Source: Anaerolineales bacterium (lineage in GTDB: Bacteria; Chloroflexota; Anaerolineae; Anaerolineales; RBG-16-64-43). Taken from it: a stretch of DNA of 64,000 nt. The stretch covers positions 1 to 64,000 of the forward strand of contig JAFGKK010000057.1 in NCBI GenBank assembly GCA_016928575.1. The letters are read 5' to 3'. Under the pieces are notes generated by a model, which saw only the letters and a list, made by a program, of their open reading frames with translations, was not told where the DNA came from and made no database searches. The translations under genes and the position numbers were made by a program. This document shows positions 117 to 22,804 of this stretch, piece by piece (positions within the stretch are counted from its first letter, which is position 1; every line of letters starts with the position of its first letter).

Positions 117-138
117 CGCCGCTCGGGGCGGCGTTTTT
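117..138 (+). terminator. Hairpin with T-run on the plus strand
   Basis: CGCCGC (117-122) and GCGGCG (128-133) form a short GC stem followed by five T (134-138) on the plus strand. It could end a transcript entering from the left. It overlaps the stop codon of the convergent protease gene. Confidence 0.4.
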
Positions 139-712
139 ATCCCCCGAGAATCCGTCCGGCGATCTCCTCGATCGCACACTGAACCTCCGCCGAAACGGGC
201 TCGTCGAATTCCATGCGACCGGGCTGGATTCCGAGGACCGCCGTCCGGCAGCCGAGTTCGGCGCACAGGTATCCTGCAAATCCGCCCATCGGAAAGGTGT
301 GGGTCGAGGCGGTTCCGTCGTCGATCTCCTGCGGTTCGATCCAACGTACCGTCCCGGGTGGTTCGCCCAACTCCGCGGCATCGAGGAAGATCACCCAATC
401 CGGCCCGAACCGGCGCAGCGGGCCGGCGCTGGCTTCCGGCCGCAAGCCGGCTTCAAAATACAACCGGACGGCGCAAGGCTTGGCTGCGGACGCATGCCGT
501 TTGGCCGTGGAGGGCATGGGGGGAGGCTTTTCGAGCGGGAGGGTGTTGGAAGCGGGAGTCTCGGGTGAGGCCTGCTGCAGACGCCGCACCAGGTGGATGC
601 CGGCCGCGTCGTCGCCCCGCAAATCCTGGCCCACGCCCACAAAAGCAAGCCGGCGGCTTTTCCGGAGGATTCCCGTAAGCCGTTGTTCCCAATCGGACGT
701 CATGCTTTCCAT
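137..712 (-). CDS. hycI: [NiFe] hydrogenase maturation protease (M52, HycI/HyaD type)
   Basis: Endopeptidase that removes the C-terminal tail of the [NiFe] large subunit once nickel is inserted. The N-terminus carries the family pattern GVGQDLRGDD (residues 26-35), followed by VIFLDA, a HTFPMGG segment and a terminal LGIQPGRMEF block, all typical of M52. About 35 extra Pro/Ala/Lys-rich residues (roughly 47-82) sit after the first helix and are not typical. It is the last gene of the hydrogenase operon, 41 bases after the NuoH-like gene, and its likely substrate is encoded at 8605-9744. The start could be ATG 712 or ATG 703; neither has a strong Shine-Dalgarno. The protein has 191 residues from 712. 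Confidence 0.85.
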   Translation of the reverse strand: MESMTSDWEQRLTGILRKSRRLAFVGVGQDLRGDDAAGIHLVRRLQQASPETPASNTLPLEKPPPMPSTAKRHASAAKPCAVRLYFEAGLRPEASAGPLRRFGPDWVIFLDAAELGEPPGTVRWIEPQEIDDGTASTHTFPMGGFAGYLCAELGCRTAVLGIQPGRMEFDEPVSAEVQCAIEEIAGRILGG

Positions 713-753
713 CTTTGCAAAGGTGCCGTATCGAGCGGATGGACCGGCGGGCT

Positions 754-1725
754 TTACAGGAACAAGCCTTTGATCACGACCATGATCAGGATGTGGATCA
801 TGGCCAGCGGCGTGAGGTATTGCCAGGCGAAGTGGATCAGCTGGTCGATGCGGATGCGCGCGAACAAGGCCCGGATGACCGAGAGCAGAACCACGACCAG
901 CAGGGTCTTCAGGATGAAGAGCGCGAACCCCCCGAGCAGATTGTCGGAGAACCCGCCCAGGAACACGGCCGCGATCAATCCCGCACCCACGACCATCTCC
1001 ACGTCGATCGCCAAGTGGATGAAGGCCAGCTTGCGGCCGGAGTATTCGGTGAACGTGCCGCCGACGATCTCCGTTTCCGCGTGCGGCAGGTCGAACGGCA
1101 CCCGCTCCAGTTTCGCCTGCAGGGCGATGAGCGCGACGATGAAGCCGAGGGCGTTGGAAAGCAGGAGCAGCGGGTGGGCCTGGTAGAACAGCGAGACATC
1201 CACTAACCGCCAGGAGCCGGCCAGGATCGCCGAACCGAGGACCGCCAGGTAGAGCGGCACTTCGTACCCGAACAGCATCGTGATCACCCGCGTTCCGCCG
1301 ATCGCCGAGAAGGAATCGGAGGAATACCAGCCGGCCAGGAAGAAGATCAATGTCGGCAGGGTGAGCAGGAAGACGACCACGATCAAATCCCCCGGAAAGG
1401 AGATGAAGGAAGGCGTGGAAGCCGAATAATGCCACAGCGGCAGGTACATTGCGGCCGTGCAGACCACCGCCAGGATGACGATCGGCAGGAGGGTGAACAT
1501 CACCGGATCGGCCCTAGTCGGAAGGATATCTTCCTTGGCCAACAGCTTTACGAAATCCGCGACCGGCTGAAGGATGCCCTGGGGGCCGGTGAACAGCGGC
1601 CCGATCCGGTTCTGCAGGCGCGCGTACACTTTGCGGTCGACCCATTCGCAGAACGTGGCGTACAGGAACAAAAACAACAGACCGGGATACACGAACAAGT
1701 AAAGCAGGGTTTTCAGAACCTCCAT
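754..1725 (-). CDS. NuoH/EchB-like membrane subunit of hydrogenase
   Basis: Polytopic subunit of 323 residues that joins the peripheral redox arm to the ion-pumping arm. The N-terminus has the family signature VDRKVYARLQNRIGP, and a cytoplasmic loop reads VPFDLPHAETEI then TEYSGRKLAF, which is closer to the NuoH/Fpo loop than to the Hyf/Mbh version. About eight hydrophobic helices are visible. AGGAG precedes the ATG by six bases. It follows the NuoA-like gene by 80 bases in the same operon. Whether it has any quinone-site remnant cannot be judged from sequence alone, but no quinone-linked partner is encoded nearby. Confidence 0.88.
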   Translation of the reverse strand: MEVLKTLLYLFVYPGLLFLFLYATFCEWVDRKVYARLQNRIGPLFTGPQGILQPVADFVKLLAKEDILPTRADPVMFTLLPIVILAVVCTAAMYLPLWHYSASTPSFISFPGDLIVVVFLLTLPTLIFFLAGWYSSDSFSAIGGTRVITMLFGYEVPLYLAVLGSAILAGSWRLVDVSLFYQAHPLLLLSNALGFIVALIALQAKLERVPFDLPHAETEIVGGTFTEYSGRKLAFIHLAIDVEMVVGAGLIAAVFLGGFSDNLLGGFALFILKTLLVVVLLSVIRALFARIRIDQLIHFAWQYLTPLAMIHILIMVVIKGLFL

Positions 1726-1805
1726 ACCGACTCCTTATCTATGGCAAAATGCTTCCGCCGCATCCCGGGCCCGCCCTCCGGGAGACACCTCCGCCGATCC
1801 CCGGA

Positions 1806-2138
1806 TCAACTCCGGGTGATCAGCGCTGCAACGGAGAGGGAAATCATCAACAGGTACGGCACCGCCAGGAGCGCCAGCGCGCCCGCCGGAACGGTGGCCA
1901 CGACCAGAACGGATACGTGCATGATCGTGAAGAACAGCGCGATGTGGAAGAACAGCCGGTAGTTGATCTGGATCGCGCTGTCCGGCATGTCCTCGCCGCA
2001 GGCGTAGGACTCCAGTTTGTCGCCGACCTTGGTCGGCTTCGGCGCAAGGAATCCGGCCGACCAAAAAAGCGCGAAGCAGGCGGCGAGGAATATCAGAAAT
2101 ACGACCGGCGGGGAGAGCAGAATGTCCGGAATGCCCAT
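1806..2138 (-). CDS. NuoA-like small membrane subunit
   Basis: A 110-residue protein with three hydrophobic helices. Between helices 1 and 2 it has KLESYACGEDMP, the equivalent of the conserved YxCG loop of NuoA/NdhC that contacts the NuoH-NuoD junction in complex I. It starts 3 bases after the NuoK-like gene ends. NuoA homologues belong to complex I and Fpo, while simpler group 4 hydrogenases such as Ech, Coo and Hyf lack one, which makes this gene informative about the complex. Identification rests on size, topology and the YACG loop. Confidence 0.8.
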   Translation of the reverse strand: MGIPDILLSPPVVFLIFLAACFALFWSAGFLAPKPTKVGDKLESYACGEDMPDSAIQINYRLFFHIALFFTIMHVSVLVVATVPAGALALLAVPYLLMISLSVAALITRS

Positions 2139-2141
2139 GGG

Positions 2142-2450
2142 TCAGCCCTTCAGGTTGGTCAACTGTTCGATGTCCAGCGTCTTCGTATGGCGGTGGATGT
2201 TGATGATCACCGCCAAGGCCGTCGCCAGCACGCAGACCTCCACCACGATAAAGGAGATCGCCAGGCTCTGGCTGGTGAGGATGTTGTTCTTCTCGTAGCC
2301 GGTGGCGATCAGCGCCAGCAAGATTCCCTTGGAGACGATCTCGATCCCGATCAGCATGCGGATCAGGTTCTTCATCGTCAGCAGGGCATAGAGGCCGATC
2401 GCCACGAGCAAGGCGACGAAGGCCATGTTGATGATCCAGGTGTCACTCAT
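2142..2450 (-). CDS. NuoK/HyfE/MrpC-like subunit
   Basis: A 102-residue, three-helix protein. The segment NLIRMLIGIEIVSKG matches the NuoK/MrpC signature, with a membrane glutamate in helix 2 (GIEI) and a second one in the third helix (VVEVCV), the two residues that carry protons in NuoK. It overlaps the NuoJ-like gene by 8 bases, indicating tight translational coupling. It would form part of the E-channel between the NuoH-like subunit and the antiporter-like subunits. Confidence 0.88.
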   Translation of the reverse strand: MSDTWIINMAFVALLVAIGLYALLTMKNLIRMLIGIEIVSKGILLALIATGYEKNNILTSQSLAISFIVVEVCVLATALAVIINIHRHTKTLDIEQLTNLKG

Positions 2451-2919
2451 CTTCGCTCCTTTTGCGGAACAGAGCCAGCACGCAGAAGACCCCGGCCAGG
2501 AGGACGGCGATCTGCCCGATCAGGTCGAACGTCCTCTGGCTCCACAACACCGTCCCGAGATCTGCCGCTTCGGGCGCGGCGGGAAGGGCGGGGAGGGCGC
2601 CGAGGAATTGCCGCATCACCAGGAAATCGGCGACGGCCATCCCGACCACGAACACGGGCAACAGGTAGCGTCCGAATCTCCGTTCCTTCACTTCCCCCTC
2701 GCCCTTAGTCAGACTAATGGTGGCGATGAACAGCACGGTGATCAGCCCGGCCACGACGGAGATCTCGAACACGCCCGCATACGCGGCACCCAATTCGAAG
2801 AAGGTCATCGCCAGGAAGATGCTGGCGCCGGCGAGGGAGATCGCCGCCTTGAGCAGGTCCGTGGCGAGGATCGCCAGGATCGAACAGAGCACCAATCCGC
2901 ACAACAGGAAGATATGCAT
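2443..2919 (-). CDS. NuoJ-like membrane subunit
   Basis: A 158-residue protein with about five helices. The third region reads FELGAAYAGVFEISVVAGLITVLFIATISL, close to the NuoJ pattern around its conserved helix-3 segment, here with membrane Glu. The stretch between helices 4 and 5 is Pro/Ala-rich and variable, as in NuoJ. Its start abuts the stop of the NuoN-like gene and its end overlaps the NuoK-like gene. A relation to MbhD/MrpB-type subunits is the alternative. Confidence 0.78.
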   Translation of the reverse strand: MHIFLLCGLVLCSILAILATDLLKAAISLAGASIFLAMTFFELGAAYAGVFEISVVAGLITVLFIATISLTKGEGEVKERRFGRYLLPVFVVGMAVADFLVMRQFLGALPALPAAPEAADLGTVLWSQRTFDLIGQIAVLLAGVFCVLALFRKRSEDE

Positions 2920-4398
2920 TTAGAACCCCGGGAGGTGGAGGACGGATTGTCCGGCGGTGAGGGCATCCGCCGCCGGCTGGATCCAATTCTGGATGACGAA
3001 CGGAAAGCCCAGCCCCACGAGCACGCACACGGCGCCGAGCAGGATCGAGGAGGCCGACATCCAGAACGGCGCCTCGCGGACGTTTTGCCAGGCCTCGTTC
3101 AGCTTGCCGAAAAACGCGCGCCGCTGCAGCACCAGGTAGTACCACAGCGTCAGGATCCCGGCCAGGGCGGCGATCAACGCGCCCGCATAGAGCTTCGCCT
3201 GGATCAGCGCCAACAGGATGATAAGCTTGCTCCAAAAGCCGTTCAACGGGGGAACGCCGGCGATCGCCAGCGAGCCGATGACACTGGTTCCCGCGGTGAT
3301 CGGCATCCGCTTGCCCAGCCCGCCCAGCTTGTCCAACTCCCGCGTCCCGGTGGCGTGCTCCAGCGCTCCGGCGTTGAGGAACAGCAAGCCCTTGGCGGAG
3401 GCGTGGTTCAGCAGGTGGAAGAGGCCGCCGAGGATTCCAAGCGGCGTTCCGATCCCGATCCCGAGGACGATATATCCGACCTGGCTGATGGAGGAGTAGG
3501 CGAGCATTCGTTTGACGTCGTTTTGCCCCAGGGCCAGGAAGGCTCCCGTGAGGATCGATACGATCCCGAGGATCATCAGGATGTTTTCGATCGCCGACGA
3601 GAGGCCGAAAACGGTCAGCACGACCCGGATCAGGGTGTACACCCCGAGGACTTTGATCAGCACGCCCGAAAGCATCGCCGAGATGGGCGCCGGAGCGGAG
3701 GAATGCGCGTCCGGAAGCCAGGCGTGGAAGGGGACCAGCGCGGCTTTCAAGCCGAACGCCATCAGGAACAGCGCCGCGCACAAGGCGGCGGCCCCCTGGG
3801 CGTCGAGCGCCGCGAGCCCGGCGGCGACGGCGGAAAGCTTGAGGCTTCCCGTCAGCCCAAACAGGACGGCGATGCTCAGCAGGAGGAACGCCGTCGCCAC
3901 TGCCGAGAGCATCAGGTACTTCAACGAAGCCTCGAGCTCTTCCCGCTTCCGCCCGAACGCGATCAGCCCGTAAGAGGCGATCGCCGCCGCCTCCAGGAAG
4001 ATGTACATCGTGAACAGGTCGTCGGCCAGGATCAGGCCGTTCATGCCGGCAATCATGATCAGGAGCAGTGCGTAAAAAATCGCCTTCCCGTCGTAGTGTT
4101 CCATGTAGTCGATTGAATACAGGGTCACGCCCAGCCCCACCAGCGCGACGGTCAGCAGCAGGAGGATGTTGAAGCTGTCGAGCGTCAGGGTGATGTTGAG
4201 GGTCATGTCCGGCAGGGCGGCCTGCAGAAGGTTCGGCCCCGTAAGCACGAGCTCCCGGGCGCAGAAGATTCCGTAGCCCAGCAGGAAGAGCAGGGTCAGG
4301 TTGGCCACCAGGTCCGGCAGAAAGCGCTTGGAAATTTTGCCGAGCAGGGGCATGATGCCGGCCAGGACCAAGGGAAGGGCGAGGAACGGAATACTCAT
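2920..4398 (-). CDS. Antiporter-like subunit (NuoN/NuoM/MrpD type)
   Basis: A 492-residue protein of the proton-conducting membrane transporter family, with about 14 helices. The ion-path residues are visible: Glu in FLEAAAIASYG (helix 5), Lys in GLKAALVPFHAWLPDA (helix 7), Lys in LIKVLGVY (helix 8) and Lys in FWSKLIIL (helix 12). AGGAG lies five bases before the ATG. It is one of three such subunits in the operon. Its shorter C-terminus, with no lateral helix, resembles NuoM/NuoN rather than NuoL. Confidence 0.88.
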   Translation of the reverse strand: MSIPFLALPLVLAGIMPLLGKISKRFLPDLVANLTLLFLLGYGIFCARELVLTGPNLLQAALPDMTLNITLTLDSFNILLLLTVALVGLGVTLYSIDYMEHYDGKAIFYALLLIMIAGMNGLILADDLFTMYIFLEAAAIASYGLIAFGRKREELEASLKYLMLSAVATAFLLLSIAVLFGLTGSLKLSAVAAGLAALDAQGAAALCAALFLMAFGLKAALVPFHAWLPDAHSSAPAPISAMLSGVLIKVLGVYTLIRVVLTVFGLSSAIENILMILGIVSILTGAFLALGQNDVKRMLAYSSISQVGYIVLGIGIGTPLGILGGLFHLLNHASAKGLLFLNAGALEHATGTRELDKLGGLGKRMPITAGTSVIGSLAIAGVPPLNGFWSKLIILLALIQAKLYAGALIAALAGILTLWYYLVLQRRAFFGKLNEAWQNVREAPFWMSASSILLGAVCVLVGLGFPFVIQNWIQPAADALTAGQSVLHLPGF

Positions 4399-4414
4399 CG
4401 TTTCTCCTTAACGG

Positions 4415-6274
4415 CTAGAAAATCCAAAGCAGGATCAGCAGGGCGGCGAAGCCCGCCAAACACCAGGCGAGGTAGTTCGGGTAAAACCCATTGTGCACGG
4501 TCCGCAGTCCGCGGATGATGAGCTTGCCCGCCCCGACGGCGCCTTTCTCGTAAACCGCGTCGATCGGCCGGTCGACGGCGCGGAAGATGGCGTTTGAAAA
4601 AGCCCGCAGGACCTTCAGGCCCTGTTCATAGAGGTCCAGGCGCCGTTCCTCGCTCCAGCGGTAGAACGCGCTCAGAACCGGAATGCCGTGGATGATTTCG
4701 GAGGCAAGGTAAGCCCGCTTCTGCGCCCGGTACCAGCCGAACAGATGGATGCCCAAGCCCACGGCCAGCATCCCGATCGAGATCAGCGCCACGGGAGTGA
4801 AAACGTCCAGCGCGTGGCCGGTCAGGTCCAGGTGTTCGCCGGCGGCCAGGCGGCCTTCCAACACCGGCTGGATGAAGGCGTTGAGCGGCAGGGAATTCGC
4901 CACGCCGAACAGGATGCAGAGGAAAGCCAGCGTCAGCAGCGGCAGGAGCATGGCGGCCGGGCTTTCCTTTGCCGCCGGGATTTCCTTGCTGCGCGGCCCG
5001 AGGAAGATGGCATGGCCGGCTTTCAGGAAGGAGGCGAACGTGAAGATCGCCCCGACCCAAGCCGCGGCGGCGAAGGCCGGGTAGCCCGTCTCGAGCGAAC
5101 CGTGGAAGATCATTTCCTTGGAGACGAATCCGTTGAGCGGCCAGACTCCGGAAATGGCCAGGGCGCAGACGCCGAAGCCGACGGCGGTGAGGGGCAGTTC
5201 CCGGAACAGCCCGCCCAGCTTCTTGAGCTCGGTCGTCCCGGTTCGGTGCTCGACGGATCCGGCGCTGAGGAACAGGCCGCTTTTGTAGATCGCGTGATTG
5301 ACCATGTGGAAGATTCCGCCGGCGATGCCGACCGGTGTCGCGCTGCCGATTCCGAGGATCATGTACCCCACCTGGCTGATGGCGTGGAACGAGAGCAGTT
5401 TCTTGAAGTCCTTTTGAATCAGCGCCATCAGGACCGCCAGAACGATCGTAAACGCCCCGATCGTCATTAGGACGATCGAAAGCGCGCTGTGGGCTTCCAG
5501 CGAGAAGATGTCCAGGCAGATCCGCGAGAGCAGGTAAATCCCGAGCAGTTTTTCCAGCGAGGCGGGCAGAAAGGCCATCACGCTCACCGGGGCGTCCAGC
5601 GCCGCATCGGGGATCCAGGTGTGGAACGGCATCGCGCCCGCCTTGCCGATCGCGCCGATCATCATCAGCAGGAAGCTGGCCGCGGCCGGGCCTTCGGGCG
5701 CGACCGAGAGACCAGACATCTGCGCCGACCCGTTCGTGGTCCACAGGATGGCGATGCCGAGGACGAGGCAGAAATCGCAGAAGGCGGAGATCAGCAGCGC
5801 TTTAACCGCGGTGCGTGGGGAATCCTTCGTCCCCAGGCTGATCAGCGCGTAGAGCGTGGGCAGCAGAGCCTCCCAGAAGAACAGCAGGACGAGGAAGTTG
5901 TCGGCCAGGACCGCGCCGCCGGCGGCCGCCAGGGTGAGCAGGAAATATCCGAAATACTCCTTGGCCCGCGGATGCCCGCCCATCTTCGCCAGCGAAAAAA
6001 GGCAGATCAGAAAGCCGAAGATGCCTATCCAGAGTAGGATGAAGCGGCTCAACGCCGCTAGGCGCAGGTCGAAAGCGATGATTCCCGCCATCCACGGATG
6101 GGAGAGCGAAAGGTCCTCCGCGGCGAACAGCCGCGCGTCGACGTACAGCAGACCCGCCGTGCCGAGCAAGGCCAGGATGCCCGCCGGGGTTTTCCAGCGC
6201 GCGGGAAAAAGCAGGATCACAACGCCCAGAATCAGCGGAAGGAGGATCGGGATGAGCAGCGTGTCGGGTGTCAT
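4415..6274 (-). CDS. NuoL-like antiporter subunit with lateral-helix C-terminus
   Basis: A 619-residue member of the proton-conducting transporter family. Key residues are retained: Glu in FFWEALLPTLY, Lys in IGKAGAMPFHTWIPDA, Lys in EKLLGIYLL and Lys in FVSKEMIFH. The C-terminal ~130 residues add a helix, a long amphipathic stretch (WSEERRLDLYEQ onward) and a last membrane helix, as in NuoL of complex I, where this element runs along the membrane arm. Its ATG overlaps the stop of the upstream gene by four bases (ATGA), and this start also fits the family N-terminus. An open frame extends further upstream but is a shadow of the neighbouring gene. Confidence 0.88.
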   Translation of the reverse strand: MTPDTLLIPILLPLILGVVILLFPARWKTPAGILALLGTAGLLYVDARLFAAEDLSLSHPWMAGIIAFDLRLAALSRFILLWIGIFGFLICLFSLAKMGGHPRAKEYFGYFLLTLAAAGGAVLADNFLVLLFFWEALLPTLYALISLGTKDSPRTAVKALLISAFCDFCLVLGIAILWTTNGSAQMSGLSVAPEGPAAASFLLMMIGAIGKAGAMPFHTWIPDAALDAPVSVMAFLPASLEKLLGIYLLSRICLDIFSLEAHSALSIVLMTIGAFTIVLAVLMALIQKDFKKLLSFHAISQVGYMILGIGSATPVGIAGGIFHMVNHAIYKSGLFLSAGSVEHRTGTTELKKLGGLFRELPLTAVGFGVCALAISGVWPLNGFVSKEMIFHGSLETGYPAFAAAAWVGAIFTFASFLKAGHAIFLGPRSKEIPAAKESPAAMLLPLLTLAFLCILFGVANSLPLNAFIQPVLEGRLAAGEHLDLTGHALDVFTPVALISIGMLAVGLGIHLFGWYRAQKRAYLASEIIHGIPVLSAFYRWSEERRLDLYEQGLKVLRAFSNAIFRAVDRPIDAVYEKGAVGAGKLIIRGLRTVHNGFYPNYLAWCLAGFAALLILLWIF

Positions 6275-7701
6275 GGCACCAGTCCTAGGATCTGGAGTGT
6301 TGCAGTGTCCACCAATTGCATCGGGTAGAAAACCAGAATTCCGCCCGCGACCGAAAAGGCGGCCAACCCCAGCACCGCCAGGAGCATCGAGGGCGTGCCC
6401 TCCCGGGCGTCGGATTTTGCGTCTCCCAGAAAGACCGCATGGAACAGGCGGAACAGGTAGAACGCGGTGAGCACGGCGATCAACAGCGCGGCGGCCGCCA
6501 ACCACAGTTTGCCGGCTTCCACCGTCCCCAGGATCACCATGAATTTGGGGAAGAAACCGCCCAGGGGCGGGATCCCGATCACGGAAAAGGCGCAGAGGAA
6601 GAAGGCGGCGGCCGTCAGCGGCATGGTTTTGATCAGGCCGCCGAGCTCGCGGATGTCGCGTTTGTGGGTGGAATGCTCGACGATCCCGGCGCAGAGGAAC
6701 AGGCCGGCTTTGCCCAGGCCGTGCATCAGGATGTAGAGCAGCGACCCGGCGATCCCGATCGGCCCGGAGACGCTCAGCCCCAGGAAGATGTATCCGATCT
6801 GGCTGATCGTGGAATAGGCGAGGATCCGTTTGAGGTCGTTCTCGACCGCGGCGGCGCAGGCGGCCACGAGGCTGGAAGCCATCGCCAGCACGGCGATCCC
6901 GTCCGCCCAGCCCGGCGGAAGGACAAAGGTGGCGTTGAACAGCCGGGCATAGGCGTAGACGCCGATCTTGACCAGCACCGCCGCGTGGAGCATCGAAGTC
7001 ACCGTGGAGGGGGCGACGCCGGCGTCCGGCAGCCAGGTGTGGAGCGGCAGGGTGGCCGATTTGGCGAAGATCCCGACCAGGACCAACAGCACGATCGCGC
7101 CGGTCAGGCCGACCCCGTGCATTTTGGTCAGATCGAACGTCCCGGTTTGGCCGTGGATCAGCAGAAACCCCACCAGCATCACCACCGCCGAACCGAAGGT
7201 GAACAGGAACGCCTTGTCGGCCTTGACGACGTGTTCCTTGCCGCGGTAGAACCCGATCAGCCGCCAGGAGCAGATGGCGGTGACCTCCCAAAACAGGTAC
7301 AGGAAGATCAGGTTCGAGGAATAGACCAACCCCATCATCGCCCCGATAAACAAGAGGAACATCGCATAATATTCGTTTTGATGCTCCTCGCGCTCCATAT
7401 ACCCGATGGAATAAATGAGGATCACGGCCCCGACGGACGACGAGACGACCGACATGAACACCGACAGCGCGTCCACGGTGAGGATGAAATCCACCCCCAG
7501 CAGGAGATTCCAATAGAGGATCAGGTTTCCGCCCCCGACGGCGAACGGGATCAGCAGCATCGCAAAGGCGGCGGTGGCCAGGCCGAGTACAACGGCCCAG
7601 AGCGATCTCGCGCGGGGGGAGAGCCAACCGGCCAGGGGAACGCTGAACGCCCCCAGGATCGGAACGAAGATTGCCAGGAGGGTTATCGTTTCAATAGGCA
7701 T
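6271..7701 (-). CDS. Antiporter-like subunit (NuoM/MrpA/MrpD type)
   Basis: A 476-residue polytopic protein, third antiporter-like subunit and first gene of the membrane module. Conserved ion-path residues are present: Glu in FWEVTAICSW, Lys in FAKSATLPLHTWLPDA, Lys in LVKIGVYAYAR and Lys in FFPKFMVI. The start at ATG 7701 is chosen because the first helix begins there; the frame stays open 25 codons upstream, but that part is unlike the family. It is separated from the ferredoxin-like gene by 376 bases that hold a promoter. Confidence 0.87.
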   Translation of the reverse strand: MPIETITLLAIFVPILGAFSVPLAGWLSPRARSLWAVVLGLATAAFAMLLIPFAVGGGNLILYWNLLLGVDFILTVDALSVFMSVVSSSVGAVILIYSIGYMEREEHQNEYYAMFLLFIGAMMGLVYSSNLIFLYLFWEVTAICSWRLIGFYRGKEHVVKADKAFLFTFGSAVVMLVGFLLIHGQTGTFDLTKMHGVGLTGAIVLLVLVGIFAKSATLPLHTWLPDAGVAPSTVTSMLHAAVLVKIGVYAYARLFNATFVLPPGWADGIAVLAMASSLVAACAAAVENDLKRILAYSTISQIGYIFLGLSVSGPIGIAGSLLYILMHGLGKAGLFLCAGIVEHSTHKRDIRELGGLIKTMPLTAAAFFLCAFSVIGIPPLGGFFPKFMVILGTVEAGKLWLAAAALLIAVLTAFYLFRLFHAVFLGDAKSDAREGTPSMLLAVLGLAAFSVAGGILVFYPMQLVDTATLQILGLVP

Positions 7702-8077
7702 GGGAGAGTCGCATCTGTCCTTGGGTGGATTTCCTTCTGCGGCGGTGAGGCCGCCTTTCCGGAAAAGCCTCCGCACCAGCCCGGTCCGGGGGGGCTTTCC
7801 TCGGGCGGCGCCGGGCGGGTTGTCGACCGGGCGCGCATCGATTCACCGGCAGTGTTCGGTCGGCGGTCGGCGGCCCGCAGGAAGGCCTTCGCTGTCCGGA
7901 ATGTTTCCGGAGCCCGGAAATGAGAGACGCGTTGTTCCGATTTGCGGAGAATGCGGCCGCGATTCCCGGCGGCGCCTCGGGCGTCCATCCCGGTCCGGCC
8001 TCGGGAAATCCGCGGGTGGGTATTATACATTCCCCGCCGGCGGCTGACAATCTTCCACCGCCTCCCGCGGGACGTCG
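7702..8077 (-). other. Long leader between the two hydrogenase modules
   Basis: No credible gene lies in these 376 bases; open frames here have no recognisable protein character. The stretch contains a sigma-70-like promoter (8022-8050) and therefore a predicted 5' leader of about 310 nt for the membrane-module genes. Several GC-rich inverted repeats occur, such as TCCGGAA/TTTCCGGA near 7898-7915, but no known riboswitch motif was recognised. Confidence 0.5.
8022..8050 (-). promoter_or_regulatory. Promoter for the membrane-arm genes
   Basis: On the minus strand TTGTCA (8045-8050) is separated by exactly 17 bases from a perfect TATAAT (8022-8027). It lies just after the stop of the ferredoxin-like gene and points to the antiporter-like genes, so the membrane module can be transcribed separately from the peripheral module. 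Confidence 0.7.
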
Positions 8078-8497
8078 CTACAGCTTCAGCTGCGGAACTT
8101 CCAACTCGGTTTTCTTTAAGAAGTCCTTCAAGTCCTGGTCGCGTCCGTACATCACCGTGAACGGCTCGCGCTTGAGCGCGGCGTTCGCCCAATGCTCGTT
8201 CGACATCTCCAGACAGTTGAAGCGGCAATTGACGACGCATTGGGAGCAATAGGTGCAGCGGTCGGCGTGGAAACGCATGATGAATCGCTTGTTGGGCTTG
8301 TCGACGGCGATGATTTCGATCGCGTTGGCGGGGCAATCCTTCATGCACAGCTGACAGCCGGTGCATTTTTCCGGATTGTAGCGGACGACGCCGCGCAGGC
8401 GCTGCGGTACCGGGGATTGCTGGAGGGGGAAATTCACCGTCGCCGGCCGGCGGAACACGGAACGGAGGATTTCGCCCAACATCGAGCCGATTTTCAT
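8078..8497 (-). CDS. NuoI/EchF-like 2[4Fe-4S] ferredoxin subunit
   Basis: A 139-residue peripheral subunit with two CxxCxxCxxxC motifs (Cys 45/48/51/55, the last followed by Pro, and Cys 81/84/87/91), the pattern of NuoI, EchF and HyfH that passes electrons from ferredoxin to the small subunit. The start at ATG 8497 has GGGAG seven bases upstream; an upstream in-frame extension is low complexity and overlaps the large-subunit gene. It is the fourth gene of the peripheral module, 107 bases after the large subunit. With no NADH or formate module in the window, reduced ferredoxin is the most likely partner (inference). Confidence 0.9.
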   Translation of the reverse strand: MKIGSMLGEILRSVFRRPATVNFPLQQSPVPQRLRGVVRYNPEKCTGCQLCMKDCPANAIEIIAVDKPNKRFIMRFHADRCTYCSQCVVNCRFNCLEMSNEHWANAALKREPFTVMYGRDQDLKDFLKKTELEVPQLKL

Positions 8498-8604
8498 GGA
8501 AGAGCTCCCTTTGCGGCTGCGGCGCAACCCTCCCGCCGCCGCGGGCGCCGGGAGAACGGCGGTATGGCTGGCGGTCGGGTGGACGCGCGCGGGCGCCGCA
8601 GGTT

Positions 8605-9744
8605 TCAAGAGGTTCCTGCGGTTTCTCCGTTCCGGCGAAACACGACGGAGCGGTCGTTGCAGGAAAAGCACGGGTCGATCCCGGCCAGGATCATCGGTAC
8701 GTCGGCCAGCTGTTGGCCGATCGCGCCCTCCAGGACCGAGGTGAAATTTCGAAGGCTGGGCGTGCGGACTTTCACCCGGTACGGCCGCTCGCCGCCGTCG
8801 CTTTTAATAAAGTAGAACAGATCGCCGCGCGGCGCCTCGACCTGCATCACCGTTTCCCCTTCGCGGACGCGGCGGGGGAAGCGGACGGAGAGCTCCCCCT
8901 CCGGCAGATGGCGGACCAGTTCGCGGATCACGCGGATCGATTCGAACAGTTCCTGGATCCGCACCACGAACCGGGCTTGCAGGTCGCCCACGTCGGAAAG
9001 GACGATCGTCACCGGGTGCTGCTCGTAAAGCAGATAGGGGGCGTCCACCCGCGTGTCGCGGGCGATCCCCGAAGCGCGCGCGGTGGGGCCCGTCACCCCC
9101 AATTTTTCCGCCTCGGCGGCGTTCATCACGCCGACGCCGCGGGTCCGTTGCAGGAAGGTCTCGTCGCTGGTGACGATCTTCATGTAGTAGTGCAGGCGCT
9201 CTTCGAGGTAGGCAACTCCCTTGAGGATTGCCTCGACCTGCGGAGGGGTGATGTCGTATTTCACGCCGCCGAGGATGTTGGATGAGTAGTTCACGCGGTT
9301 GCCGGTGGTGGATTCGAGAATGTCCATCACCGTCTCGCGGTCGCGCCAGGAATACATAAACAGGGTGTCGAATCCGGCTTCGTGGGCGCCCACCCCGGCC
9401 CAGAGCATGTGGCTGTGGATCCGTTCCAGTTCCACCAAGACTTGGCGGATGGCCTGCGCCCGGGGGGGCGCCGGCACGCCGGCCAGTTTCTCCACCGCCA
9501 AGGAATACGCGGTGGAATGGATGTTGGAGCAGATCCCGCAGATGCGCTCTACCAGGTAGAGGGTTTGAGCCCAATTGCGGTTCTCGGCCCCCTTCTCAAT
9601 CCCGCGGTGCACGTATCCGAATCGAACGCTCGAAGAAGTGACCGTCTCGCCCTCGACCGAAAATTCGAAGTGCGCCGGTTCCTTCAGGGCGGGGTGCTGG
9701 GGGCCGATCGGAATGATAAATTTCTCTTTTGACTCGACGGTCAT
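8605..9744 (-). CDS. [NiFe] hydrogenase large subunit, group 4 (NuoD/EchE-like)
   Basis: The 379-residue catalytic subunit, binding the Ni-Fe(CN)2CO site that interconverts H2 and protons. The N-terminal motif is ERICGIC (Cys 69 and 72) and the C-terminal one is DPCFSC (Cys 359 and 362), so all four nickel-site cysteines are present; complex I NuoD has lost these. After DPCFSCNDR only 14 residues follow, a short tail expected to be cut after Arg 365 by the operon-encoded protease. Overall length matches EchE/CooH (about 360), without the NuoC fusion seen in HycE. Its ATG overlaps the stop of the NuoC-like gene (ATGA). Confidence 0.93.
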   Translation of the reverse strand: MTVESKEKFIIPIGPQHPALKEPAHFEFSVEGETVTSSSVRFGYVHRGIEKGAENRNWAQTLYLVERICGICSNIHSTAYSLAVEKLAGVPAPPRAQAIRQVLVELERIHSHMLWAGVGAHEAGFDTLFMYSWRDRETVMDILESTTGNRVNYSSNILGGVKYDITPPQVEAILKGVAYLEERLHYYMKIVTSDETFLQRTRGVGVMNAAEAEKLGVTGPTARASGIARDTRVDAPYLLYEQHPVTIVLSDVGDLQARFVVRIQELFESIRVIRELVRHLPEGELSVRFPRRVREGETVMQVEAPRGDLFYFIKSDGGERPYRVKVRTPSLRNFTSVLEGAIGQQLADVPMILAGIDPCFSCNDRSVVFRRNGETAGTS

Positions 9745-10232
9745 GGCGTTTTTCCTTCCGCGGTTCCGCCCTCCGGCGGAGGGGCGGATACGATGTAATC
9801 CTTGCGCAGCGGGTACGTTTCCTCGGGCCAGTCGTCGGAGAGGAACAGCCGCCGCGGGTCCGGGGTTCCTTCGCACACTACGCCGAACATTTCCATCAGT
9901 TCGCGCTCGAACAGCGAGGACGCGGGGATCAGCGGGTAGATGCTGGGAACAACCGGGTTGTCGCGGGGGAGCGAGACCCGAAAGGTCAGCACGGCCGCCT
10001 TGTTGCAAAATTGGTACAGCACCTCCAGGCGGCCGGATTCCGGTCCGGGATCCAATCCCGTGATCGCGGCCAGAAACCCCCAGCGGGCGGAGGCCAGCGG
10101 CTGGATGCATTCCAGCAATCGCCCGGGTTCCACCGCCAGGTCGATGCGGTCCGGTTCCGGAGCGGATTGCGAAAGAAAACGGCCTTCGACCAGGGAAACG
10201 CCTTCGGCCAGAATCTCTTCGGTCGTTTTCAA
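9741..10232 (-). CDS. NuoC/EchD-like peripheral subunit
   Basis: A 163-residue protein of the complex I 30-kDa/NuoC family, a structural subunit beside the large subunit. The C-terminal region has the family signature: SSLFERELMEMFGVVCEGTPDPRRLFL, then DDWPEETYPLRKDY. The N-terminal half is variable, as usual. It overlaps both neighbours by four bases, so the small subunit, this gene and the large subunit are translationally coupled. Confidence 0.9.
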   Translation of the reverse strand: MKTTEEILAEGVSLVEGRFLSQSAPEPDRIDLAVEPGRLLECIQPLASARWGFLAAITGLDPGPESGRLEVLYQFCNKAAVLTFRVSLPRDNPVVPSIYPLIPASSLFERELMEMFGVVCEGTPDPRRLFLSDDWPEETYPLRKDYIVSAPPPEGGTAEGKTP

Positions 10233-10717
10233 TTCGCCACCTCCGATTTCTTTTGCTTCAGGCTTTCGAGCAGTTTGATGATCCCGTCGATGATCGCCTC
10301 CGGCCGCGGCGGGCAGCCGGGAATGTAGGCGTCCACCGGGATCACCTTATCGATTCCTCCCAACACGTTGTAGCAACCTTGGAATACGCCTCCGGAAAGA
10401 GCGCAGGAACCGATCGCAACGACGAATTTCGGTTCGGGCATCTGTTCGTAGATCCGCCGCAGGCGTTCGCGGGATTGCAAGGAAACCGCGCCGGTACAGA
10501 TGAGCACGTCGGCGTGGCGCGGGCTGCCCTGCAGCTTGATCCCGAACCGTTCCACGTCGAAGGAGGGCGTTAGCGCGGCCAGGATTTCGATGTCGCAGCC
10601 GTTGCAAGAGCCGCTGTTGAAGTGGATCGCCCAGGGGGAATGAATCCGGGACCAGTTGACGATCGATTCCATCATCCGCGTCCAGGGTTTGGGAAGCCCG
10701 GCGGGAACGTCGCTCAT
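10229..10717 (-). CDS. Hydrogenase small subunit, NuoB/EchC-like
   Basis: A 162-residue subunit with one [4Fe-4S] cluster next to the active site. Cysteines are at 38 and 41 (SGSCNGCDIE), 105 (GSCALSGG) and 135 (PGCPPRPEA). The first pair is spaced CxxC as in group 4 hydrogenases, whereas complex I NuoB has adjacent Cys-Cys. There is no Tat signal, as expected for a cytoplasm-facing enzyme. It is the first gene of the operon. Confidence 0.92.
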   Translation of the reverse strand: MSDVPAGLPKPWTRMMESIVNWSRIHSPWAIHFNSGSCNGCDIEILAALTPSFDVERFGIKLQGSPRHADVLICTGAVSLQSRERLRRIYEQMPEPKFVVAIGSCALSGGVFQGCYNVLGGIDKVIPVDAYIPGCPPRPEAIIDGIIKLLESLKQKKSEVAN

Positions 10718-11277: not shown

Positions 11278-11469
11278 ATGCGGGATGCGCAGGGAAGCCG
11301 GACCGATCGGAGAAGCCTCCCAAAACCATCGCCGGCGGCCGCGGCGGCAGTTCCGTGCGCGCCGACCGGTCTGCCGAGCCACAAAACCTTCCGCGAATCT
11401 CTTCCCGCGCCGAGCCTTTCGCTGGTAATCCTCCCCGGTCCCCTTCGCCGGAACAGGCGGGTTTCATGA
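11278..11469 (+). CDS. 63-codon leader ORF coupled to GGDEF copy 1
   Basis: ATG 11278 has a perfect AGGAGG six bases upstream, the best ribosome-binding site in the window. The frame runs 63 codons and its TGA (11467-11469) overlaps the ATG of the next gene (ATGA at 11466-11469). The product is Arg/Pro/Ala-rich and resembles no known family; the centre holds five Ala in a row. The likely role is translational coupling or leader control of the downstream GGDEF protein rather than a protein with its own task. The codon content looks non-selected, so a real product is uncertain. Confidence 0.5.
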   Translation: MRDAQGSRTDRRSLPKPSPAAAAAVPCAPTGLPSHKTFRESLPAPSLSLVILPGPLRRNRRVS

Positions 11470-13721
11470 GTGCTCGCCCCGTGACGATAGGCATGCTTCC
11501 AGGATGGCCGGTGTACGGCAGCATTTTCCTGGACCGGTTCCTCCAATACGTCATCGGCGGCGTGCGCGCCGCGGCGCTGGATCACGGCTGCAACCTGATG
11601 GTCGCCTGCGGCGTGAGCCGCACCCCCGGGATGCGCTCCCTGCACACCGCCTGGCCGGTGGTCTCACCGGACTGCGATTACGTCCCGCTCGGCCATTGGA
11701 ACACCGACGGCCTGATCGTCGCCGCCCCTTTGCGTTCCGAAGAACGCAGCCGCTACCTGCGCTCGGTGATTGAACAATCCTTCCCGGTGGTATGCATCGG
11801 CTCCGGCGAGGGAACTCCCGCGATCGTGATGGATAACGAAGGCGGCATCCACAAGGCCGTCGAGCATCTGATCCGCCACGGACACCGGCGGATCGCCTTC
11901 ATCGCCGGCGACCCTTTGGATCACGGCGACAGCACCCTCCGGCTGCAGGCCTACCGGAGAGCCGTCGAACAATTCGAGGCTGATCCCGATCCGCGCTTGG
12001 TTGCTTATGGATACCATTACCGCGAGGGAGGGCGCAAGGCCATGGAACAGATCCTTACCACCGGGATTCCCTTCACCGCGGTGGTGGCTTCCAACGACGT
12101 TTCGGCTTACGGCGCGATGGAAATGCTCCGCAGAGCCGGGCGCCGGATTCCGATGGATGTGGCGGTGATCGGCTTTGACGACCAGCCCAGTGCGGCGGGC
12201 CAAATTCCCCCGCTGACCTCGGTCCATTACCCGCTCTTTGAAGTCGGGGTGAAGGCCGTGGAAATGCTGTTGGAAAGGATCGCCCATCCCGAAGCGCCGG
12301 CCGCCGAAATTCGCATTCCGGCCTGCTTGGCGATCCGCGAATCCTGCGGTTGTTCGCCTTCCTACCAGGTGGACCGGCAGGAGATCCGCCTGCAGACCGT
12401 CCCGCAGGCGGACGATTTGGATTCCGCCGAGCAGGCCGTTCGCGACGCCCTCCAACCCGGATTGGGCGCCGGGATCTTGCACGACCCCTGCGACACCGCG
12501 CGAAAATTTGTATCCGCCTTCCTGCAGGCCGTGGCGAGCCGGGAGTCAACCGATTTCCTCCGCGTGCTTGAGGAGATCCTCGATTCGACCGATCCCGCCG
12601 AAGATCACTGCGACCTCTGGCAATCGGCGGTCTCCGTCCTCCGGCTGAAAGCCTTGCCGTTGGTTCCGGACGGGCAATCCACGGTTGCCGAAAACCTTCT
12701 GCACCAGGCCCGCCTGATCGTCACCGACCACGCCGAACGCCTCAACCTGCGAACCCGCCTTTCAGCCGGCGAGATCAACCATCAGATCGGGTGGATGACC
12801 ACGCGGATGTTCTCAGCCAACTCGGAAAAAGGCATCCTGCGCATCTTCGCGGAGCATCTCTCGGAAATCGGGATCCGCTTCGCACAGGTGGCGCTGTTCG
12901 AACCCCGCCCGGACAATCCGTTGGGGGGCATCACCTTTTACGCCGACCTGTGGAAATCGGTCGACCGGCCGGATCTGGAAGACCTGCGCGAGATTTGCGC
13001 CGACTGCGGGGGGTTTCCCGCTCCCGACATCCTCCCCGGCGAAGCGCCGTATGCCCTGGTCCTTGTGCCGATTACGTTCCAAGACGAACCCATGGGATTC
13101 GCGGTGTTCGACGCCGCGGCCCTCGAACCGCTGGCGACGATCACCCGGCAATTGGCGGCCGCGCTGAAACTCCAGCAGTTGCACGACCAAACCGAGGACC
13201 TTTCGCTGGTCGATCCGGAGACCGGAGTGCAGAACCGGAGGTTCTTCGACCTGTTCCTGCGGCGCGAGATGGATCGCAGCCGCAGGTACCGCCGCGGATT
13301 GACCCTGATGATGATCGAGCTGGACGGATGGAAGCACGTCGCTTCCTCCCGCGGGGCGATGCGGAGCCGGGAAGCCCTGCGCACGCTCGCCCAGCGCATC
13401 ACGCTCTGTACCCGCCGCGGCTCGGACGTGGTCTGCCGCTATTCAAGCGAAACCTTCGTCCTCCTCCTGCCGGAAACCGGCCGCGCGGGGGCGCAAAACA
13501 TCGCCGAGGCCGTCCGCCGCAGCATCGAGGAGGAGGAAGAATTCCGCGGTTTGTTCGACGTCGGAATCGGGATCGCCGTCGCCGGCGACGACAACCCCAC
13601 CGAAGACGCCGACAGCCTGATGGCCGCCGCCGACCGGGCTCTCTGCCAGGCCAAATCCGTCGGAAGAAACCGGACCGAGATCGTCAAGCTCGCCGCTCCG
13701 CCCGACACCCGGAAGCGGTAA
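11466..13721 (+). CDS. LacI-type sensor/GGDEF protein, copy 1 (degenerate GGDEF)
   Basis: A 751-residue cytosolic protein with no signal peptide or membrane helix. Residues ~1-290 are a LacI-type periplasmic-binding fold (WNTDGLI, GHRRIAFIAGDP, SNDVSAYGAM, AVIGFDDQP) lacking the DNA-binding helix-turn-helix. ESCGC closes this domain near 290. A helical region, a GAF-like region (~430-570) and GGDEF (~580-735) follow. The active-site motif is SSETF instead of GGEEF and the first metal-site Asp is Glu (IELDGWK), so cyclase activity is unlikely. The inhibitory-site motif RxxD (RGSD) is intact, so it may bind c-di-GMP instead. The ATG overlaps the leader ORF stop. Confidence 0.88.
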   Translation: MSARPVTIGMLPGWPVYGSIFLDRFLQYVIGGVRAAALDHGCNLMVACGVSRTPGMRSLHTAWPVVSPDCDYVPLGHWNTDGLIVAAPLRSEERSRYLRSVIEQSFPVVCIGSGEGTPAIVMDNEGGIHKAVEHLIRHGHRRIAFIAGDPLDHGDSTLRLQAYRRAVEQFEADPDPRLVAYGYHYREGGRKAMEQILTTGIPFTAVVASNDVSAYGAMEMLRRAGRRIPMDVAVIGFDDQPSAAGQIPPLTSVHYPLFEVGVKAVEMLLERIAHPEAPAAEIRIPACLAIRESCGCSPSYQVDRQEIRLQTVPQADDLDSAEQAVRDALQPGLGAGILHDPCDTARKFVSAFLQAVASRESTDFLRVLEEILDSTDPAEDHCDLWQSAVSVLRLKALPLVPDGQSTVAENLLHQARLIVTDHAERLNLRTRLSAGEINHQIGWMTTRMFSANSEKGILRIFAEHLSEIGIRFAQVALFEPRPDNPLGGITFYADLWKSVDRPDLEDLREICADCGGFPAPDILPGEAPYALVLVPITFQDEPMGFAVFDAAALEPLATITRQLAAALKLQQLHDQTEDLSLVDPETGVQNRRFFDLFLRREMDRSRRYRRGLTLMMIELDGWKHVASSRGAMRSREALRTLAQRITLCTRRGSDVVCRYSSETFVLLLPETGRAGAQNIAEAVRRSIEEEEEFRGLFDVGIGIAVAGDDNPTEDADSLMAAADRALCQAKSVGRNRTEIVKLAAPPDTRKR

Positions 13722-13751
13722 TTTCAACTTTCACGCCGGAAAGGAAACCGC

Positions 13752-14699
13752 ATGCCGCCGATTGATAGCTTCGTCGACCGCGTAGTCCAAAACGTGGAAC
13801 GGGTGATCGTGGGCAAGAGGGAAAGCATCAAACTCCTCATGGTGGCCCTGCTGTGCGAGGGCCATGTGTTGATCGAAGACGTCCCCGGGGTCGGCAAGAC
13901 CATGCTCGCCCGCTCGATCGCCCTCAGCCTGGGCGGGCAGTTCCGCCGCCTGCAATGCACGCCGGATCTGTTGCCCAACGACGTCACCGGCGTCTCCGTG
14001 TTCAACCAGAAAAACTCGCAGTTCGAATTCCGGACCGGTCCGGTTTTCGTCAACATCCTCCTCGCGGACGAAATCAACCGGGCCACGCCGCGGACGCAAT
14101 CCGCCCTGCTCGAGGCGATGCAGGAGCAGCAGGTGACGGTGGACGGGGTGACCCATCCGTTGCCCAAGCCCTTCCTGGTCCTGGCGACCCAGAATCCGAT
14201 CGAATATGAAGGAACGTTTCCGCTGCCCGAAGCCCAACTCGACCGGTTCTTAATCCGGCTCACCCTGGGATACCCCTCCCCGGAGGATGAGAAAACTCTG
14301 CTGGTCCACCTCCGCCGCGAGCATCCGATCCACCGGCTGGAGCAGGTGGCCGAATGCGCGGAACTGCTGGACCTGCAACGGCAGGTGTGGGAGGTCCACA
14401 TCGACGACACCCTCCAGGAGTACATCGTCCGCCTGGTCGGCCGCACGCGGGCCCATCCGGATCTGGCGCTCGGAGCCAGCCCGCGGGCGAGTCTTTCGTT
14501 GTACCGCACGGCTCAGGCGCTGGCCGGGGTGCGGGGGCGGGACCATGTCCTGCCGGACGATATTAAAACCATGGCCCCGTTGGTTCTTTCCCACCGCTTG
14601 GTCCTGCGGCCGGAAGCGGAGCTTCGCGGACGGACCGCCCGCGCGGTGCTGGAGGAGATCCTGGCGGAGACCCCGCTGGACCTGGGGACCGTTTCCTAA
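13752..14699 (+). CDS. MoxR-family AAA+ ATPase
   Basis: A 315-residue chaperone-like ATPase. Walker A is EDVPGVGKTMLA (about residues 42-53), Walker B is LLADEINRA, and the sensor region reads LATQNPIEYEGTFPLPEAQLDRF, diagnostic of the MoxR class. A purine-rich GGAAAGGAAA sits just before the ATG. It is followed by a DUF58 protein and a DUF4129 membrane protein, the common MoxR operon thought to serve folding or activation of membrane or cell-envelope proteins. It starts 30 bases after GGDEF copy 1 and may be co-transcribed with it. Confidence 0.93.
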   Translation: MPPIDSFVDRVVQNVERVIVGKRESIKLLMVALLCEGHVLIEDVPGVGKTMLARSIALSLGGQFRRLQCTPDLLPNDVTGVSVFNQKNSQFEFRTGPVFVNILLADEINRATPRTQSALLEAMQEQQVTVDGVTHPLPKPFLVLATQNPIEYEGTFPLPEAQLDRFLIRLTLGYPSPEDEKTLLVHLRREHPIHRLEQVAECAELLDLQRQVWEVHIDDTLQEYIVRLVGRTRAHPDLALGASPRASLSLYRTAQALAGVRGRDHVLPDDIKTMAPLVLSHRLVLRPEAELRGRTARAVLEEILAETPLDLGTVS

Positions 14700-14939
14700 A
14701 TCCGCGAATCGCGCGCAGGGTCGCATGCAGGGTCATCGGAAGGATATCAAGAAAAAAGCGATGTTCACACCGCCTCTCCCTCAAGCCCTCCCTTTCCCGG
14801 CCCGGAGCCTAAAAATAAAAGGCTTTATAAAATCCGATTTATCTTGTCGGGATGCGGGGTGGGACGGCCCGTCGCGGAGAATTTCGGGCAAAGCGGCCGG
14901 AGGCCGAATGAGGGCCCATCGCCGAGTTGTGGTTCGGGA

Positions 14940-16172
14940 GTGCGCCGGCAGGTGATCGGTCCTTTTTTCATCTTCGTCGTGTTTCTGTTCATCCTTGCGA
15001 TCGCCTTGCAGGAAACGTCGGTCGTAACCGTCATTTATTTTCTTCTCGGGGCGTTCCTGTTCGGCCGGTGGTGGCGTGACCGGGGGCTGAGTTCGATCGA
15101 TGTCCGGCGCCGGCTGCACCCGCAGGCGCTGCTCGGCGAAACGATCCGAGTCCGATTGGAGGTCGCCAACCGCGGTTGGCTGCCCGTTCCCTGGGTGAGG
15201 ATCCATGAGAGTCTTCCGGTCGAGCTTTCGGTTCCGAATTTTTTCCGCCGCGCGGTGGCTCTCGGCCCCAAGGGCAAAACCTCCGTCGACTACCTGTTGC
15301 GCGGTAACAAACGGGGATATTACCGGATCGGTCCGGTGTACCTGCAATCCGGAGATCTCCTGGGCTTGGAGGAAAGCCGCGAGCGGCAAGCGGCGCCCGA
15401 TTACCTGACCGTCTTTCCGCGGATCGTTCCGATCCCGAAATGCCCGATCCCGTCCTTCTCCCCCAACGGAACCCTGCGGTTCCACCAGCCGTTGTTCGAG
15501 GATGCCAGCCGGGTGATGGCTAAACGGGATTACCAGGCGGGGGATTCCCTGCGCCGCATCGATTGGAAAGCGTCGGCGGCGGCCGGGAAACTGCAGGTCC
15601 GGCAGTACGATCCGGCGATCGCGCTCGAGGTCGCGGTCTTTTTAAACCTGTGTGCGCGGGAATACGAACCGCGCACCCGGATCGATGCGGCCGAACTGGC
15701 CGTCGTCACCGCCGCTTCCCTCGCCGCCTACGCCGCAGGCAAACGCCAGCCGGTCGGCTTGGTTTCCAACGGCCAGGATCCGCTCAATCCAGAGAGCCGG
15801 ATTCATGCGCTGCCGGTCCGCAAAGGATCCGCCCACTTGGCTCTGCTGCTGCAGACCCTGGCCCGGATCCAGCTGGCCGACGGGGAATCCTTCGCCGCCC
15901 TCCTCCGCGAGCGGGGTTCGGGGCTTCCCTGGGGCACGACGCTTCTGGTGATCACCGGAAAGCCGGACGAACTCCTGTTCGACGAGTTGCTGCGGGGGAG
16001 GCGCAGGGGCCTGCAAAGCGTGGTTTTCCTGACGGCTCCGGTGCTGCGCTACGAGGCCTTCGAAAGCCGGGCGCGCGGCTTGGGCATCCCCTATTTCGAG
16101 ATCCGGTTCGAGGACGACCTGAAAAGGATTCTGGGTAGGTGCAGAGGAACGGAATGGAATCCCGCCGGTTGA
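14940..16172 (+). CDS. DUF58 protein of the MoxR operon
   Basis: A 410-residue protein with two N-terminal membrane helices (residues ~5-50) and a cytosolic part containing the DUF58 signature REYQAGD-like block (KRDYQAGDSLRRIDWKASAA), followed by a von Willebrand A-like fold. DUF58 proteins are MoxR partners. The start is uncertain: GTG 14940 or GTG 14952 put the first helix at the N-terminus. An ATG at 14844 would add 32 low-complexity residues and is disfavoured. The end overlaps the next gene by 19 bases. Confidence 0.85.
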   Translation: MRRQVIGPFFIFVVFLFILAIALQETSVVTVIYFLLGAFLFGRWWRDRGLSSIDVRRRLHPQALLGETIRVRLEVANRGWLPVPWVRIHESLPVELSVPNFFRRAVALGPKGKTSVDYLLRGNKRGYYRIGPVYLQSGDLLGLEESRERQAAPDYLTVFPRIVPIPKCPIPSFSPNGTLRFHQPLFEDASRVMAKRDYQAGDSLRRIDWKASAAAGKLQVRQYDPAIALEVAVFLNLCAREYEPRTRIDAAELAVVTAASLAAYAAGKRQPVGLVSNGQDPLNPESRIHALPVRKGSAHLALLLQTLARIQLADGESFAALLRERGSGLPWGTTLLVITGKPDELLFDELLRGRRRGLQSVVFLTAPVLRYEAFESRARGLGIPYFEIRFEDDLKRILGRCRGTEWNPAG

Positions 16173-17758: not shown

Positions 17759-17760
17759 GC

Positions 17761-20028: not shown

Positions 20029-20437
20029 ACCGCCGAGTGCTTTTCCCCGCGGCATCCCGCCCGAGGGCATGTTCCCCGTGGAAGAGCCGAAGTCCGCGTT
20101 CCGGTTGGCGCACCAAAGGCTTCGTCTCCAAACGGTTGGGCCGATGATTGCCGGTTCGGCCGGCTCCCCGCACGGCGATGTCCGGCCGCAGCCTTTGCGT
20201 ATTTCCTTGGCGAAGGCGGGGCGAGGGGGTTGCAATGGGAAAGGGTGTGAAACGCCGTGATCCTTCCGGTTTCATCACGCGCGACGGCACCCTCCCAACC
20301 GTGGACGTCTGTGGGGGATGCGCTTCCAGGATAACGCCCTGCATTTCCCCCGGCGCTGCGCGCAAAGACACGCGTCCGGGTATGGTTTGATATACAATAC
20401 ATGCGCGGGATTCGGTATTCGAAGAGTGTATCATCCC
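20029..20437 (+). other. Intergenic region before GGDEF copy 3
   Basis: No gene is supported in these 409 bases. Near its end, TGATATACAATAC (20388-20400) contains an extended -10-like element (TGa-TATACA, or TACAAT at 20393-20398) without a matching -35, about 40 bases before the ATG of copy 3. I looked for a c-di-GMP riboswitch and did not see one. Confidence 0.4.
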
Positions 20438-22780: not shown

Positions 22781-22804
22781 CCCGAGAACCGCATCCGGAA
22801 TTTG

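Follow-up and report, generated by a model that had tools for sequence, protein, structure and literature searches.

A putative ferredoxin-dependent [NiFe]-hydrogenase with a NuoA homologue in Anaerolineae, and the apparent exchange of its membrane arm

Does an enzyme that keeps the NiFe site of a hydrogenase, yet carries the subunits of a minimal complex I, stand between the two, and what would it do in the cell? The question is raised by the window, i.e. the whole stretch of 64,000 nucleotides of Anaerolineales DNA analysed here, in which a sequence-only reading had described a hydrogenase with the gene set of an 11-subunit complex I and had proposed a ferredoxin-dependent, H2-forming ion pump intermediate between group 4 hydrogenases and complex I. 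Current models run from Mbh through Mbs to complex I, with coupling by MbhI or by an MbsH' extension and not by NuoA (PMC7684303). For such a hydrogenase, no description of a NuoA gene or of such a subunit set was found in the searchable literature.

The operon and its catalytic arm

The hydrogenase operon consists of 12 minus-strand genes at 137-10717, in the order B, C, D, I, L, M, N, J, K, A, H and protease (Table 1), which were identified one by one with Pfam and NCBIfam. The gene list, motifs and coordinates given by the sequence-only reading proved right when the minus-strand open reading frames, the Pfam/NCBIfam matches and the motifs were checked. The three antiporter-like proteins L, M and N match Proton_antipo_M at 1e-56 to 1e-73 (Pfam), and an NADH module is absent from the operon. 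Farther along the window, at 11355-27695, several genes encoding LacI-like sensor and GGDEF domains follow one another, apparently as a local expansion (11355-13721, one ending at 20028, 20318-22780, 22802-25126 and 25386-27695).

Table 1. Genes of the hydrogenase operon in the window
Feature	Position	Strand	Matches and remarks
NuoB/MbhJ-like small subunit (B)	10229..10717	-	Oxidored_q6 1e-35; native, 79-82% to same genus/family
NuoC/MbhK-like subunit (C)	9741..10232	-	Complex1_30kDa 9e-28; native
NuoD/MbhL-like catalytic subunit (D)	8605..9744	-	Complex1_49kDa 2e-67 and NiFeSe_Hases 4e-13
NuoI/MbhN-like subunit (I)	8078..8497	-	native; two [4Fe-4S] motifs; ferredoxin presumably docks here
Antiporter-like L, 476 aa	6271..7701	-	Proton_antipo_M; non-native membrane block begins here
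Antiporter-like M, 615 aa	4415..6262	-	NuoL-like C-terminal extension; sister is an L268 antiporter
Antiporter-like N, 492 aa	2920..4398	-	Proton_antipo_M; sister is the second L268 antiporter
NuoJ/MbhD-like subunit J	2443..2919	-	Oxidored_q3 4e-10, also MbhD 5e-6
NuoK/MbhG-like subunit K	2142..2450	-	Oxidored_q2 4e-19; both axis Glu present
NuoA/ND3 homologue A	1806..2138	-	Oxidored_q4 8e-4; loop YACGED; His at ND3 Asp66 position
NuoH-like subunit H	754..1725	-	NADHdh 8e-82; own lineage in clade with group I, group II and complex I NuoH
HycI-type maturation protease	137..709	-	HycI 2e-9; native

The enzyme belongs to the group 4 [NiFe]-hydrogenases by the two CxxC NiFe motifs of its large subunit and by small, H and antiporter subunits related to those of complex I. 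D carries ERICGIC at residue 66 and DPCFSCNDR at 357, the latter followed by a 14-residue tail, and all four NiFe cysteines are kept; among PDB sequences it is closest to MbhL (3e-76), followed by HycE of formate hydrogenlyase (4e-71) and Nqo4 (4e-67). The quinone ligands of complex I (His38 and Tyr87 of T. thermophilus Nqo4) are absent, the residues aligned with them belonging to a hydrogenase-type loop (Glu22) and to the CGIC motif. In this loop, GPQHPALKEP, Glu22 aligns with MbhL Glu21, the shuttle through which the NiFe site receives its protons (PMC11228991). Residues K21-E22-P23 do not vary among 21 sequences of group I, by which we mean the window-type hydrogenases with DPCFSC, group II being a sister group with DLCxxC. 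The proximal cluster motif of B (NSGSCNGCDIE) is a CxxC of the hydrogenase type, whereas NuoB of the same phylum has CC. HycI proteases usually act on a tail such as that after the conserved Arg of D, and HypD is encoded elsewhere in the genome.

The intact NiFe ligands, the shuttle Glu, the hydrogenase-type B, the two-cluster I, the lack of an NADH module, the protease and HypD all argue for a ferredoxin-driven, H2-forming pump, and so lend support to the function proposed from the sequence alone. We consider it likely that the operon encodes a group 4 [NiFe]-hydrogenase coupling ferredoxin oxidation to H2 formation and to ion pumping through a complex-I-type arm, the native arm having been swapped here; ferredoxin as the donor, the direction, the ion and the stoichiometry are parts of this proposal that we infer. 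Group 4 hydrogenases can be reversible, and the enzyme might instead operate mainly in the opposite direction, with H2 and the ion gradient reducing ferredoxin. This seems improbable to us, given the fermentative, H2-producing lifestyle reported for Anaerolineae (PMC4877987). In the H2-forming direction that we prefer, reduced ferredoxin would dock at I, where electrons would enter and run through the clusters of I and B, and protons would be reduced at the NiFe site of D. Movement of the beta1-beta2 loop of D, the TM1-2 loop of A and the TM5-6 loop of H would then lead to charge movement along K and the antiporters, in the way that loop-triggered charge movement was proposed for Mbh (PMC11228991).

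The family across Anaerolineae and its NuoA homologue

Of 298 genomes drawn from across the class, 28 (counting that of the window) encode a group I D protein, with 62-76% identity. Among the best 80 named loci, all carry a Chloroflexota or uncultured-bacterium label except two group I clusters, whose MAGs are assigned to Bacillota and Acidobacteria (L119 and L182) and are probably mislabelled Chloroflexota. Isolates among these best 80 loci are Anaerolinea thermolimosa, Leptolinea tardivitalis, Longilinea arvoryzae, Thermanaerothrix daxensis and Ornatilinea apprima; the group I family is widespread in Anaerolineae, isolates included. That Anaerolineae isolates produce H2 and have a NiFe cluster was reported earlier (PMC4877987).

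The usual group I order is J-K-X-X-A-B-C-D-H-I-protease, where X is an antiporter, with two antiporters only and ten subunits. This exact string is present in 41 of the 80 loci, and contig ends interrupt most of the others. The 11-subunit set described earlier thus holds for the window but not for its closest relatives, and the search for its gene order in other Anaerolineae returned a widespread family whose usual order has two antiporters and to which the window's membrane arm is not native. In group II, D is at 43-54% identity and ends in DLCxxCADR, where Leu replaces the Pro of the second NiFe motif and no tail follows; the clusters have no protease and three antiporters, the first of which is very divergent, J is split in two ORFs, and the A-B-C-D-H-I order is also present (L066, L068, L080-L082).

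Within group I, D tail and protease are both present in 70 loci, both missing in 4, and the tail occurs without the protease in 1; because only 2-3 independent events are involved, no significance is claimed for this co-loss. D ends directly after DPCFSCNDR, with no protease gene seen, in L114, L117, L122, L142, L170 and L175 (in two of them the contig breaks off before the protease can be judged), and these loci represent a joint natural loss of tail and protease. At L186 (8945-11766), B-C-D-I stand by themselves with a tailed D and no membrane genes within ~9 kb on either side; the membrane arm must be located elsewhere or missing. In five loci (L035, L051, L140, L165 and L184), a second NiFe hydrogenase (DPCxxC, group 3-like) adjoins the operon.

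The homology of protein A was approached from several sides. As a single sequence, A of the window scores 20.0 bits against PF00507, under the 23.3-bit cut-off, and 25 of the 27 A proteins of the family match this model individually. Across 41 genomes, the only matches ranking below canonical NuoA genes were the A gene and the A genes of its relatives, besides one contig-end fragment. When the A-family profile was run against 177,635 PDB sequences, all 22 matches up to E 10 were ND3/NuoA chains (best 2e-4), and hhalign aligned the family with canonical Chloroflexota NuoA at 93% (E 3e-7), the alignment spanning loop 1 and helix 2. On these profile comparisons, A is a genuine, distant ND3/NuoA homologue and not an unrelated small membrane protein, the outcome that would have told against the earlier description. 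An AlphaFold model of A reached a pLDDT of 75 and a pTM of 0.46, and its best Foldseek match came from a complex I structure and was not significant.

MbhI, which is said to correspond to ND3 in Mbh (PMC10396290), was considered as another possible homologue of A and found unsupported (hhalign probability 0.8%). Mbh and the family have the slot order X-small-B-C-D-H-I in common, but the slot before the small subunit holds MbhI in Mbh, as in an Mbh-like cluster of the same phylum (L267), and the NuoA homologue in the family. The A gene is absent from the Ech-, Hyf-, Coo- and Mbh-like clusters examined. NuoA and NuoJ had been put forward together as distinctive, and this was upheld for A but not for J, which is equally close to MbhD-type and NuoJ-type proteins; J and K are therefore common to Mbh, and only A is distinctive. 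An invariant His occupies the ND3 Asp66 position at the end of the E-channel in the A family, with Gly or Ser at Glu68, and in the absence of these two acids the E-channel may work differently. The Cys loop reads YACGED in the window and in several group II members and mostly YASGE in group I; the window A is nearest to that of group II.

The membrane arm of the window

Comparison with a relative of the same genus (G659) divides the operon in two. Identity is 79% for B, 72% for C, 79% for D, 73% for I and 56% for the protease, versus 49% for H, 35% for A, 39% for J, 39% for K and 39-40% for the antiporters; between G659 and a second relative from the same family (G289), membrane subunits are 73-88% identical. 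In the D tree, the window is sister to G659 and G289 (100/100), and a group I without the window is rejected (p 0.005); grouping H with its same-genus relatives is rejected as well (AU p 6e-6). Before B, the operon lacks the native J, K, A and both antiporters, and between D and I it lacks the native H, a 107-nt gap being left there; the block L-M-N-J-K-A-H lies between I and the protease with native genes at both flanks. Judged by these identities, trees and gene positions, the native membrane arm has been replaced by a three-pump arm. With three antiporters in place of two, the window enzyme would have gained a pump and would drive three, against two in its relatives.

A mosaic of this kind could also have arisen in the assembly or binning of the MAG, and the operon does sit at the very start of its contig. 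Misassembly is nonetheless unlikely, because native genes, namely I and the protease, flank the block on both sides and the genome holds no second such membrane arm; moreover, the native H is gone from the D-I gap, GC is uniform and the contig carries ordinary chromosomal genes, and we give an artefact very little credence. Returning to the replacement, its donor was not found in samples of the order (400 genomes), the phylum (400) and the class (396), nor among plasmids and viral contigs. A search of 395 other class genomes gave nothing close to M, and the order and phylum samples contain no H match above 50%. The nearest M and N (41-48%) are carried by L268, a cluster elsewhere in the phylum, whose H, J and K are unlike those of the window and in which A is absent. 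The hydrogenase of L268 has antiporter-J-K-antiporter between D and I and lies beside a likely formate dehydrogenase. GC of the membrane block is the same as that of the rest, with no signature of transfer, and a transfer, if any, was thus not recent.

Central-axis Glu and Lys residues are kept in all three antiporters and in K (the TM12 Lys of N was judged by eye). The loop motif of H is PFDLPHAETEIVGGTFTEYSG. Its TEYSG was set aside as a complex-I-specific mark, since group 4 hydrogenases, too, can have the EYSG motif. The window's own genome also has a complex I cluster (L216, C61:20001-40000) with four antiporters (763, 505, 509 and 507 aa); two fall in the NuoM clade, and we take the cluster to encode complex I of the "extra NuoM" type.

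Between group 4 hydrogenases and complex I

Of the known systems, Mbh (Pyrococcus furiosus, PDB 6cfw, HydDB 4d) resembles the window in its four-Cys NiFe site, Glu21, CxxC small subunit, J/K-like subunits and antiporters; it differs in that D of the window falls outside the Mbh clade (a clade with Mbh is rejected, AU p 0.033) and that MrpE/F/G-like genes are absent from the window. Ech of the Dehalococcoides type (L269-L274) may have a D of similar lineage to that of the family, but is a six-subunit set without A, J and K, with one antiporter and a very different H. Complex I, in the form of the 11-subunit Nuo and Fpo, shares the A, H, J, K and L/M/N gene set with the window, and H, M, N and A of the family are related to the Nuo versions; unlike complex I, the window has NiFe cysteines for the quinone residues, CxxC for the CC of NuoB, and a maturation protease. 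Ehr complexes (Marreiros 2013, cited in PMC6349859) are pumps related to hydrogenases that stand between group 4 and complex I and lack the NiFe ligands, which are kept in D of the window. HydDB group 4g is a possible home of the family by default; it is loosely clustered and of unknown function (PMC5037454), and the members described in PMC8542988 are Mrp-linked and Mbh-like.

In the H tree, complex I shares one clade (95/94) with the window, group I and group II. Placement of H with both Mbh rows, with Ech or with Hyf is rejected (p 0.025, 0.023 and 0.0006), whereas placement with one Mbh row is not (p 0.10), and the clade with complex I is supported at 72/40 once the Ech and Coo rows are omitted. 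In the antiporter tree, one group I/II pump joins NuoN (98/95), one group II pump joins NuoM (100/99) and one group I pump joins NuoL weakly (89/72). By these phylogenies the membrane arm of the family is complex-I-like, and with the homology of A they bear out the complex-I-like gene content reported earlier. For the catalytic arm, the family (98/89) joins Ech at 93/86 in the D tree (Ech and Coo-like sequences at 93/86 and 89/89), although a clade with NuoD is not rejected by the AU test (p 0.236); with B and D combined, Nuo is adjacent to the family at 69/39 and the Ech placement is not recovered, nor is it rejected. A first tree without Ech had made D sister to NuoD (91/86), which vanished after Ech rows were added and hence is not claimed. 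The membrane arm is thus complex-I-like and the catalytic arm related to either Ech or complex I, a split signal that would be left either by a true intermediate or by an Ech-like catalytic arm joined to a complex-I-like membrane arm.

If the enzyme is a living intermediate, it would descend from an ancestor common with complex I after the split of Mbh, Hyf and Ech, and NuoA and the NuoH/M/N-type pumps would predate the loss of NiFe on the complex I branch. The Nuo clades of H and the antiporters, the homology of A, the weak joining of B+D to Nuo and the A-B-C-D and H-I order, which matches that of nuo operons, all speak for this descent; the preference of D alone for Ech, the lower H support with fewer rows, the placement of H with one Mbh row, which is not rejected, and the unrooted trees with few references speak against it, and we hold it to be doubtful. 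The joining of an Ech/Coo-type peripheral arm to a complex I-type membrane arm would explain why D sides with Ech and Coo-like proteins while H and the antiporters side with Nuo, and the window itself demonstrates an exchange of arms; yet D with Nuo is not rejected by the AU test and the B+D tree gives Ech no support, and we would rate such a fusion at rather less than an even chance. The intermediate position that had been proposed is therefore plausible but unproven, the catalytic arm being placed by the trees between Ech and complex I.

Only tentatively, then, may the NuoA-bearing hydrogenases of Anaerolineae be regarded as the closest living hydrogenases to complex I, with NuoA and a NuoH/M/N-type arm on a NiFe site that would still be working, and the window as a case where the swap of a whole arm changed the number of pumps. 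The origin of complex I from hydrogen-making enzymes is an old question, for which a NiFe enzyme with a NuoA homologue in cultured Anaerolineae would provide a testable system. Moreover, two members of one genus that combine different membrane arms with much the same catalytic arm may serve as a natural experiment relating antiporter number to pumping ratio.
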